Shown in pieces: positions 54,170 through 58,074 of a stretch of DNA of 64,000 bases (within the stretch, counting starts at the first letter, position 1; each line of letters begins with the position of its first letter). This DNA is from Volutella citrinella (taxonomy: Eukaryota > Ascomycota > Sordariomycetes > Hypocreales > Nectriaceae): NCBI GenBank assembly GCA_034401135.1, contig JAWZSP010000007.1:3472001-3536000 (forward strand). The letters are read 5' to 3'. Below the pieces are notes generated by a model. It made no database searches. It was not told the DNA's origin and was given only the letters and a program-made list of their open reading frames with translations. A program made the translations under genes and the position numbers.

Positions 54170-56685
54170 ATGAGCGACAGTCCTGCACTTTGGCAGGCGA
54201 ATATGCAAGAATCGTCACCAGACACAACTCGTCGATGTCACGTCGGAATTAGGCTCTTGGAATCAAGTCCTCACGACTCGGGCTACGGCTCCCCCCGGGG
54301 CTCTCCATGTGCGCCACAGGGCCACTCAAGCAAAGGAAAACGTCGATACCTGCACAGGGATAGTCATGGCCTCACCAAGAGAGAATCTTCGATACAGACA
54401 CCAATCCTAGACGCGTCAAACAAGGACAGGTCCATTCCTTCTACTGCCTCACTTGGATCGGAAACCGGGAGCCCATGGTCGTACATTTGCCATGGCGGTC
54501 CTCAAACGCCTTCACCCGACGGAGCACGCAGAACAAGGTGGCTGGACAGGTTCGTCCCCAACCGACACCATTCAGCACCCCCAGCGGATCGATATAGAAC
54601 TACAAAGAATGCGAATGAGCTTTCCGTGCAGGAGAGACTCACACGAAACAAGATTGCTTCCCAAGACCCGTTTTATGTCCCCAGCGGTTTGGCCAGCCCG
54701 GATCACCATTCCTCATTTTACCTCGACAGCAGGGATTTAGCAAGAGGTCAGTAATATCGAAAAATTCTCATTAGACCTCGCTGATATGGACAAAGCTGGT
54801 ACAGTCCTCAGCCCTTTACCCCAGAACCAGGGACGCATGAGGCGGATAAGTCAGGGTGCTGTCTAGTCGGTCGGTGGTCTGGCTTCACCCACCTCAGCTA
54901 CAGATAATGGACGCGGGCGGCTTGTTCGTCGTGGGACCAATGCTCGAATGTACACAACGACCTTCGTCGCAGCCCCTCCATGTGGCGACGAAGACCTAGA
55001 AAAGCACGAGGGCCGGATAGCACATGCCTTGGACATGGATCGGGTCAGCAGAATTCTCGATTTTGGCCAACGCAGCTTGATCCCCGACCCCATCCGTACC
55101 AACTCCGGCCCTCAGACCCGTACAGTATGGAACGGATATCAGTGGGAAACTATGGACCAAGGTGGAGGTAAGAGAGAACGGGCTTCTTGCTGGCTCGCAT
55201 CTTGCTAATGAGTCAAGTGCGCGCGGTCAAGAAAAAGCGGACTCTCCCAACGGCGCCCCTTCGGTATGGTTGACTTCCTGTTCTGCGGCCAACTTGAGTT
55301 GCAACTGATGATTCGCCAGAGTACTAGATGCACCCAACTTGAAAGATGACTTTTACTGCTCCCCTCTGGCCTACTCTGTATCATCCCGGACGCTGGCCGT
55401 CTGTCTCGGCAGCCTTCTCTACGCATGGTCAGAGGAAGACGGCGTTCATATGATGCACGGTGCCCAGTCGGGCGCCTGGCTTACATCAGTCGCCTTCTCA
55501 TCAGAGCAGGGCGCCAAAGCCATCCTCGGGATTGGGCAGTCCAACGGTTCGCTAGTACTGACATCTGTGTACGATGGGTTGCCACGGTTTGAGGTGCAAC
55601 AGCCCTTCCCGATTGCATGTCTAAGCTAGCGACCGACATGCACCTTGCGGTCATCCCGAAACCCGCTCAACCCTGGCGTATCGGTCCAAACCGAGGATTT
55701 GGTGGTTGGCGACGAAATGGGAACTATATTCTACTACGTTGTTGAATGGCCTATGAACTGGGAAGTATCCAGGGATACATGGCCTGGGTCTGTGACACTC
55801 ATCGCCGAAATATCCGTACACTGCCAACAGATTTGCGGCCTCTCGTGGGCGCCAAACGGAAAACAATTTGCGTCGGGGGGCAATGATAATTTGTGTTGCT
55901 TGTTTGAGGTGGACCAGATCCTCGAGAAGGCCCGCCATTGCCTCAAAGGCGCCGAAACTTGTGCTGTCGATTTGAGCGAAGAAACCGTCTCCTCCAGCTC
56001 CGTCTTGGAATCGATATCGACTAGAGAGCACTGGTCCCAGGACGATGACCAGACCACAGACGCGTTGACAAGTCGGAACCCATTTGAAAGGACCGGGGCA
56101 CGGCACTCGACTGAACCTGTCTGCTACCTTGGTCGTGGCACAGAAAGGCATCGGTAGGCCCATGGTGCCGCAGTCAAAGCCATCGCCTTTTGCCCTTGGC
56201 GGCGAGGCCTGGTGGCGACAGGGGGCGGTTCCAACGACAAGTGCATCCACTTCTTCCATAGCGACTCTGGTGCCGCCCTTGCGACTATATCTGTATCTGC
56301 TCAGGTCACCTCATTGATGTGGTCGACGACAAAGCGCGAGATTGTTGCCACGTTTGGGTACGCTCAACCAGAACACCCGTTTCGGATTGCCATTTTTAGC
56401 TGGCCGGACTGTGAACAAGTCGCGGCGATCCCTTGGGAGGGCAAGCTGCGTGCCCTCTACGCCGTGCCCTACCCACGGGGGCCTGCATGCCCCTCGGGAC
56501 GCAAAGATGGCCAAACAAGCCATGAAGGTTGTATTATAGTGGCATCAAGCGATGAGAGCGTCAAGTTCCACGAGGTCTGGTCGCCAGAGAGGGGGACCAC
56601 GGTGGCCACTCCAGGTATTTTGGGTGGAAGCGATATACTTGAAGGGTTGGAAGGCATTGACAAGGAGGGTTCTGTGATCCGCTGA
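54170..56685 (+). CDS. AMA1: Meiosis-specific APC/C activator Ama1 (Cdc20/Fizzy family), interrupted by three in-frame TAG codons
   Basis: WD40 co-activator of the anaphase-promoting complex used in meiosis and spore formation. Exons: 54170-54746, 54805-55167, 55218-55263 and 55320-56685 (the first intron could alternatively be 54751-54811), 784 codons. The C-box that binds the APC/C is DRFVPNR (residues 126-132). The WD40 part includes VLDAPNLKDDFYCSPLAYS, LVVGDEMGTIFYYVVEWP, ICGLSWAPNGKQFASGGND and TGGGSNDKCIHFFH; the protein ends in IR, the tail motif that docks on the APC/C. Three codons are TAG: 54864 (codon 213), 55627 (codon 432) and 56155 (codon 608). Each stands where the family has Trp (QGAVxSVGG, CLSxRPTC, RHRxAHGAAVKA). 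There is no frameshift and no other stop. I infer sexual-stage A-to-I editing of UAG to UIG (read UGG). Unedited mRNA would yield only 212 residues. A recent pseudogene is the alternative. Confidence 0.9.
54848..54885 (+). promoter_or_regulatory. Putative editing hairpin around TAG 54864
   Basis: AAGUCAG (54848-54854) can pair with CUGGCUU (54879-54885), seven pairs with one G-U. The 24-nt loop contains the TAG at 54864-54866 near its middle. The base before the target A is U. The weakest of the three hairpins because the loop is large. Confidence 0.4.
55614..55642 (+). promoter_or_regulatory. Putative editing hairpin around TAG 55627
   Basis: UGCAUGUC (55614-55621) pairs perfectly with GACAUGCA (55635-55642), eight Watson-Crick pairs. 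The 13-nt loop (taagctagcgacc) contains the TAG at 55627-55629 in its centre. Hairpin-loop placement of the edited A is a reported preference of fungal A-to-I editing. Confidence 0.6.
56147..56169 (+). promoter_or_regulatory. Putative editing hairpin around TAG 56155
   Basis: GGCAUC (56147-56152) pairs with GGUGCC (56164-56169), six pairs with one G-U, extendable by a G-U. The loop ggtaggcccat contains the TAG at 56155-56157. Confidence 0.5.
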
Positions 56686-57149: not shown

Positions 57150-58074
57150 CTATTTCAAGATTGCGATCAAAAGAATGAGTATTATGATGAGAACCACGAT
57201 CGCCGTCATCTGCTTGTTCTCGCTAGCACCGCGAGCCACCCGGCCGAGGATCCGGCTTGCTCGGTCTAGGCGACTCTGGTGGCGGTCGGTAAGGCCCTCG
57301 ACCTCGTCGAGCATAGCGACGTGGCTATCGAGCTCATCACCAATCTGCATGCTCAACTCGCGCTGGCGGCCGATGGACTCACCAAGGCGGTCGAGCTGCT
57401 CGTCCTGCTGCTCGAGGATCTGCGAGTGGTATTCGTGGAGCTGCTGGTTGTCTAGCTGCGCGGCATCGTCCCGGTAGGCGTCGGTAGCGGTGGGATCGTC
57501 GCGGTAGCGACCGCCAAAGAGATCTTCGCGACCGGGGTCAATGGCATCTTGCTGGGGCGAGGCGGGTGTATCGCTGAAGCGGACCGACTTGGGCTTGCGG
57601 GCCCCCGAGGCAGCATGGGCGAAGTCATCGGCCAAGGCATCCGAGTTGGGTTGCGTCAGAGTCGCCGAGGCGGCGGCGTCGGCGAAGCCGTGGAACTGGG
57701 CAGTCAGGTCGTCGTACTGCTTCTGGAGAGCAGCGAGGTCTTCGGCGGTGCTGGCAGCGGCGCTAGAAGAACAGACGGCTCAGTACATCTTCTTGGACCT
57801 TGCGTGCGTGCTTGCGTGTGCGCAATACAGGGCATCTGATGCTGCCCTGCCGGGAGGGAGGACGGGGAGGTACTCACGCCTCATCGCCAGCCTGGGCGAG
57901 GCGGAGCTGCTCCTCGCCTACGGCAGCCAGGCCATCGCGGAATTGGTCGAGAGATCGCGAGAGATGCCCATCCTGGGAGTCGTCCTCAAGGTCGAGGCTC
58001 TGTGCGCGCTTGCGCTCAAGAATCGACAGCTTGATGTGGTCTGCCAGGAGGAAGAGCTGGCTGGAGCTAGACAT
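57150..58074 (-). CDS. SYN8: Syntaxin-8-like Qc-SNARE
   Basis: Tail-anchored SNARE of the endosome/vacuole pathway. Two exons, 57878-58074 and 57150-57762, give 269 residues; the ATG at 58074 opens MSSSSQLFLLADHIKLSILERKR. The N-terminal helices are followed by a disordered linker (KPKSVRFSDTPASPQQD). The SNARE motif runs from about residue 180 (HEYHSQILEQQDEQLDRLGESIGRQRE...HVAMLDEVEGLTDRH), with the zero-layer Gln expected in the LSMQIGDEL segment. A C-terminal hydrophobic anchor (MTAIVVLIIILILLIAILK) ends the protein, with almost nothing after it. The order and length fit Syn8/Tlg1-type proteins of filamentous fungi. Confidence 0.93.

Follow-up and report, generated by a model that had tools for sequence, protein, structure and literature searches.

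The window analyzed here, a 64,000-nucleotide stretch of the Volutella citrinella genome (Nectriaceae), contains a forward-strand gene of the AMA1 type whose reading frame is interrupted by three in-frame TAG codons. The gene is composed of four exons separated by three short introns (Table 1), and its spliced frame comprises 783 codons and a final TGA (784 in all). The last exon appears to encode a WD40 propeller of the CDC20/Fizzy family; it matches the Pfam model WD40_CDC20-Fz with an E-value of 6.1e-57 (193.6 bits, slightly below the curated cut-off of 200) as well as PDB chains of CDC20, CDH1 and SLP1. The protein was compared with relatives defined as the best 120 of 1669 database hits, selected by likeness to the query. 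Among these, AMA1-named proteins are 56–63% identical to the window protein, and proteins named meiosis-specific activator of the anaphase-promoting complex/cyclosome (APC/C) reach up to 69%. Two CDC20/CDH1-like loci elsewhere in the genome show 35–46% identity over shorter pieces and are stop-free in the match. By sequence comparison, the window protein is the AMA1 ortholog, being closer to named AMA1 proteins than to the CDC20/CDH1-like loci, and AMA1 is present as a single copy in the genome. Both the C-box motif DRFVPNR and the C-terminal IR are in place.

Table 1. Elements of the AMA1 gene, its in-frame TAG codons and related loci elsewhere in the genome (C and L are our handles)
Feature	Position	Strand	Remarks
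AMA1 exon 1	54170..54746	+	ATG start; spliced frame open; DRFVPNR at 54545-54565
AMA1 intron 1	54747..54804	+	58 bases, GT-AG
AMA1 exon 2	54805..55167	+	spliced frame
AMA1 intron 2	55168..55217	+	50 bases, GT-AG
AMA1 exon 3	55218..55263	+	spliced frame
AMA1 intron 3	55264..55319	+	56 bases, GT-AG
AMA1 exon 4	55320..56685	+	CDC20/Fizzy family WD40 propeller and C-terminal IR; Pfam, PDB matches
TAG 1, codon 213	54864..54866	+	Trp of QGAV[W]SVGG; predicted A-to-I editing site
Trp codon 382	55477..55479	+	TGG in window; gap over it in 7 Fusarium gene models
TAG 2, codon 432	55627..55629	+	Trp of CLS[W]RPTC; predicted A-to-I editing site
TAG 3, codon 608	56155..56157	+	Trp of RHR[W]AHGAAVKA; predicted A-to-I editing site
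PUK1-like kinase, DW[TAG]S	C1:3689503 (L049:2004-2006)		TAG = second Trp of DWWS, CBK1 alignment
RID-like DNA methyltransferase	C6, L050:2476-2478	-	TAG at Trp of CRW
Rho GTPase-like exon	C7:2157273 (L074:274-276)		TAG = Trp of WDTSG
SPO22 gene, LIG[TAG]DHDLG	C7:2420915-2420917 (L079)	-	open 89 codons before, 123 after TAG
Ame1 candidate	C3:2005458-2006535		DUF726 domain and Met-Val pair
Tad2-like deaminase candidate	C6:1329531-1329965		motif, by eye
Tad3-like deaminase candidate	C2:1670111-1670323		motif, by eye; weak match, E 1.5e-4

Apart from the final TGA, the sole in-frame stops of AMA1 are the TAGs at codons 213, 432 and 608; the spliced frame contains no TAA, no further TGA and no frameshift. 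Each TAG occupies a tryptophan column of the alignment, with W in 66 of the 68 relatives that have a residue at TAG 1 (52 gaps), in 120/120 at TAG 2 (no gaps) and in 119/119 with a residue at TAG 3 (one gap). The gene holds 18 CAG and 12 CAA glutamine codons, yet all TAGs sit at Trp columns. The original prediction had described a frame open for 784 codons save TAG at 54864, 55627 and 56155, with TGG expected at each, with no frameshift, TAA, TGA or glutamine-derived TAG in spite of the many Gln codons, and with both gene ends intact; the spliced translation and the alignment bear out this description. The chance that three of three random nonsense changes would be Trp-to-TAG ranges from 3e-4 to 7e-3 for transition weights of 1 to 8 and is 0.016 with transitions only, while changes of the repeat-induced point mutation (RIP) type alone give the pattern with a probability of 0.064. 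Because these chance probabilities run up to 0.064, the stop pattern by itself is suggestive, not decisive, and cannot settle the matter alone.

We consider it very likely that AMA1 is a conserved single-copy gene whose three Trp-site UAGs are edited by Tad2-Tad3-Ame1 during sexual development. Adenosine-to-inosine (A-to-I) editing of the three sites in this fungus is a prediction from sequence and modeled RNA folds, under which the deaminase would edit each UAG to UIG, read as UGG (Trp). The original prediction had pointed to a Fusarium precedent, and this precedent is real: Liu 2016 lists the AMA1 ortholog FGRRES_10728 as UAG-to-UGG edited, and FgAMA1 of F. graminearum is cited as an editing target in two reviews. 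By analogy, editing in V. citrinella would be restricted to sexual tissue; if it is limited to sexual development, full-length Ama1 would therefore be made only then. The unedited message would yield a 212-residue product with the C-box and without the WD40 propeller and IR tail, which would probably be inactive. With independent editing at the three sites, the output of full-length protein would equal the product of the three editing levels.

Coding constraint continues past each TAG, and AMA1 does not look like a pseudogene. Near-invariant columns were defined within the WD40 part (codons 321–783) as those with at least 99% one residue and at least 100 relatives having a residue. None of these 111 columns is changed in the window protein (19 lie at codons 321–431, 24 between TAG 2 and TAG 3, and 68 beyond TAG 3), a count slightly flattered because the selection of the relatives was based on similarity to the query. 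The window protein is typical of the family in its identity to 27 outgroup proteins, at 0.643 versus a mean of 0.630 (range 0.608–0.650) for 20 named Nectriaceae (rank 5/21), and beyond TAG 3 the value is 0.741 versus a mean of 0.743 (rank 13/21). The trees group the window AMA1 with Nectriaceae rows (support 100/99 in one, 98 in the other), the nearest neighbor being unsure, and its end branch, which measures 0.8 in the tree of whole proteins and 0.4 in that of the WD40 part and exceeds those of all other family rows, could reflect faster change. A large distance to the best matches is seen for other proteins encoded in the genome as well: RID stands at 53% and another protein, from a neighboring gene, at 45–48%, with no more than 48% over most of its length among the 120 matches listed. 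Because these proteins too lie far from their best matches, the long branch would probably reflect an isolated lineage.

It is improbable, in our view, that AMA1 recently became a pseudogene through loss of sex in this lineage and that its TAGs are ordinary or RIP-type mutations. Truncation by the first stop at codon 213, the long end branch and the 6% of cases in which RIP-type changes yield the pattern would fit such decay; against this, no lesion accompanies the three TAGs, all near-invariant columns are preserved, and no RIP signature was found in AMA1 (TA/AT 0.60, (CA+TG)/(AC+GT) 1.22). In addition, the alpha-box and HMG-box exons of the likely mating-type locus, 3 kb apart, carry no stops in their matched parts. 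The predicted RNA structure and the occurrence of TAG at Trp sites in PUK1, RID and a Rho GTPase, both described below, likewise speak against decay.

Fungal A-to-I editing is reported to favor adenosines in hairpin loops, with U at position −1 and a purine (A or G) at both +1 and +3. With 61-base folds, the window size used in the Fusarium papers, the hairpin-loop probability of the candidate A is 1.00, 0.98 and 0.99 at TAG 1, TAG 2 and TAG 3, respectively, and all three A's fall in a hairpin loop of the minimum-energy fold. Over four window sizes the loop probability is 1.00 throughout at TAG 1, 0.98–1.00 at TAG 2 and 0.95–0.99 at TAG 3. At 101 bases the values at the three TAGs (0.97–1.00) compare with a mean of 0.26 for 543 other coding-sequence A's, a comparison free of the flaw that affects the one with the 17 TGG codons of AMA1 (mean 0.15), which is biased toward the editing interpretation because G pairs more than A. 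U at −1 and G at +1 are found in 3/3 AMA1 sites, both being given by the TAG itself.

The same class of stop was sought in other genes. According to Liu 2016, PUK1, rid, AMA1, SPO22, a Rho GTPase, a Rho-GAP and a Dcp1-like gene are UAG-edited in F. graminearum; a review adds AMD1 and BUD14. The first six of the genes in Liu 2016 were sought in the V. citrinella genome, the Rho-GAP by a domain scan only. An in-frame TAG was detected in five of the six: AMA1, PUK1, RID, a Rho GTPase and SPO22. The TGG TAG arrangement at PUK1 corresponds to the state proven edited in F. verticillioides. Over 120 relatives, the column of the RID TAG contains 66 W, 5 N and 49 gaps; the N-row models are broken there by eye, and 43 of the 49 gapped models restart exactly at the next residue. 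In 61-base folds all 7/7 in-frame TAGs of the five genes have a loop probability of at least 0.90, as against 14% of 78 other UAG triplets of the same five loci, a result valid for the 61-base fold only, because at 101 bases the loop probability falls to 0.00 at the PUK1 site and 0.27 at the Rho site. The screen was confined to matches with a single kind of stop. Within it, two RhoGAP-match TAGs were dropped as located at intron ends by eye, and 12 of 13 kinase matches with TAG as the sole stop kind, together with three Ras-like matches, were dropped because the TAG lay, by eye, at an intron-like or frame-changing place.

The genome also encodes candidates for the editing machinery. Three DUF726 loci were found, and in the Ame1 candidate a Met-Val pair stands 31 residues (hand count) ahead of the catalytic Ser position. 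F. graminearum Ame1 has the same spacing between MV500-501 and S531, and its MV500-501 pair is reported to be essential for editing; the remaining two DUF726 loci have other residues where the candidate has Met-Val. Tad2-like and Tad3-like deaminase candidates were located as well. As a separate observation, Arg replaces the catalytic Ser in the Ame1 candidate (GYRLA), a natural counterpart of the S531A mutant of F. graminearum, in which sexual development is reported to be unharmed. A TAG in the DUF726 match at C4:3367448 was considered as a stop within Ame1 and rejected, as it marks an intron end by eye and belongs to a different paralog. At C6:2038000-2044500, an alpha-box exon, a PPF-like frame and an HMG-box exon occur together beside an APN2-like frame; we take this region to be probably the MAT1-1 locus.

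The genome further contains six OTT_1508 (OLD-type) deaminase loci, and OLD enzymes are reported to prefer U at −1 and hairpin loops and to correct UAG stops in Neurospora; stop correction in hyphae, moreover, is documented for CHE1. Editing of the AMA1 UAGs by an OLD-type deaminase, or outside the sexual stage as for CHE1 and zao, nevertheless strikes us as very improbable: the zinc-finger partners of the reported OLD enzymes are their main targets, whereas the product of AMA1 is a WD40 protein, and its ortholog is listed among genes edited in sexual reproduction.

Direct decoding of UAG as an amino acid, by readthrough or a suppressor tRNA, would also account for a frame open beyond each UAG, and is scarcely credible here: all three sites are Trp, the hairpin-loop position would be irrelevant to such decoding, and UAG terminates three of the seven open frames checked in the window. 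Because the SNARE gene at 57150-57779 (minus strand) is among the latter, we regard UAG as a normal stop in this genome. This SNARE gene adjoins AMA1 and has a hydrophobic tail at its end; the other neighbor examined is a prenyltransferase alpha-like gene. Assembly error, or removal of the TAGs by splicing, is hardly tenable, since five genes of one class together hold seven in-frame TAGs, which is no usual error pattern, and 0 of 22 frame-preserving GT-AG spans removing a TAG (45–140 nt) have both a good donor (at least 5/6) and a branch site, a test that is strict because one of the three real AMA1 introns has a donor of only 4/6; such spans would also delete conserved residues.

Several observations weigh against stop-correction editing of AMA1 by Tad2-Tad3-Ame1. 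Besides the probability of the pattern under RIP-type change, the selection of the relatives, the long end branch and the departure of the PUK1 and Rho sites from the loop in longer folds, the favored purine at +3 is found only at TAG 2 (G), with C at TAG 1 and TAG 3; the 31-base folds say little, because other A's already average a loop probability of 0.60–0.62; and the Ame1, Tad2 and Tad3 genes are named from domain or motif, not from a tree. Overall, stop editing of AMA1, as originally predicted, draws support from coding constraint, hairpin loops, the machinery and four other genes, and the expectation that relatives would share the same three sites is not reflected in their gene models.

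The position of the stop among Nectriaceae was approached through gene models available for the relatives. According to Liu 2016, false introns are placed over edited stops by automated annotation. Gaps over Trp in the models were accordingly taken as a proxy for in-frame stops, and 20 models were recognized as Nectriaceae by name among the 120 listed relatives. Seven of the 20 have a gap over W382, all of them Fusarium and one F. graminearum, and four of these seven end exactly at W382. A gap over W213 occurs in four models, Neonectria ditissima among them, and the three others we take to represent the F. solani group; three further models begin downstream of W213 and hence have little say on this site. 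Only one model (F. decemcellulare) has a gap over W608, starting exactly there, and none (0/20) has a gap over W432, while five carry Trp at all four sites (213, 382, 432 and 608). The proxy is noisy, because gaps occur also at W301/306 in three models and at W476/483 in one. One scan each of the viral and the bacterial/archaeal sequence collections yielded no DNA of relatives. The broken gene models suggest that different Trp codons are hit by stops in different lineages; they do not point to a shared set of the three TAGs, which the original prediction had named as the mark of a conserved system. It is possible, and we put it forward only tentatively, that selection on AMA1 in Nectriaceae keeps a stop, not its place (W213, W382 or W608 by lineage), and that the window lineage has stacked three, so that only triply edited transcripts would yield Ama1, which would put the meiotic activator under a steep, multiplicative lock at the RNA level.

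Stop-correction editing, and AMA1 as its target, is already known from F. graminearum, a pathogen of wheat that belongs to the Nectriaceae too: both the kind of event and the gene are familiar because correction of the FgAMA1 stop is in print. FgAMA1 (FGRRES_10728) resembles the gene described here in being orthologous and in carrying an in-frame UAG edited to UGG. It differs in that the F. graminearum model P0090 has Trp at each position where the window carries a TAG and is gapped over W382, and because of this its stop would lie at another Trp. PUK1 of F. graminearum shares with the present AMA1 the presence of more than one UAG per gene, and across PUK1, NCU03242 (N. crassa) and FVEG_01191 (F. 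verticillioides) neighboring Trp codons are reported to differ by species; the PUK1 stops are, however, tandem codons, whereas those of AMA1 are spaced by 219 and 176 codons. Stop correction of the OLD-ZAO and CHE1 kind is similar in the UAG-to-UIG change, the U at −1 and the hairpin loops, but concerns zinc-finger transcription factors and is hyphal or virus-induced; OLD-ZAO, in addition, has a paired deaminase gene, whereas the examined neighbors of AMA1 are the prenyltransferase alpha-like and SNARE genes. The literature used comprises PMC4817773, PMC11156358, PMC11087585, PMC11050156, PMC11169179, PMC7306014, PMC9600606 and PMC12754623. In the parts of the stop-correction literature surveyed, a fungal gene with three separated corrected stops was not found, although this is a weak indication. 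What is new is the occurrence of three separated stops in one gene, in a further lineage; a shift of the stop between Trp codons among lineages would be new as well.

For work on the family, caution is warranted, as many AMA1 and RID gene models in Nectriaceae are broken at such codons. The field still debates whether an edited stop serves as a useful switch or is an accident that editing renders harmless. If the same gene has repeatedly gained a stop at different positions, this would speak for a benefit of the stop itself. If stops merely accumulate once editing exists, three in one gene would be the outcome of a ratchet. The genome of V. citrinella offers a case where the switch and ratchet views could be told apart.
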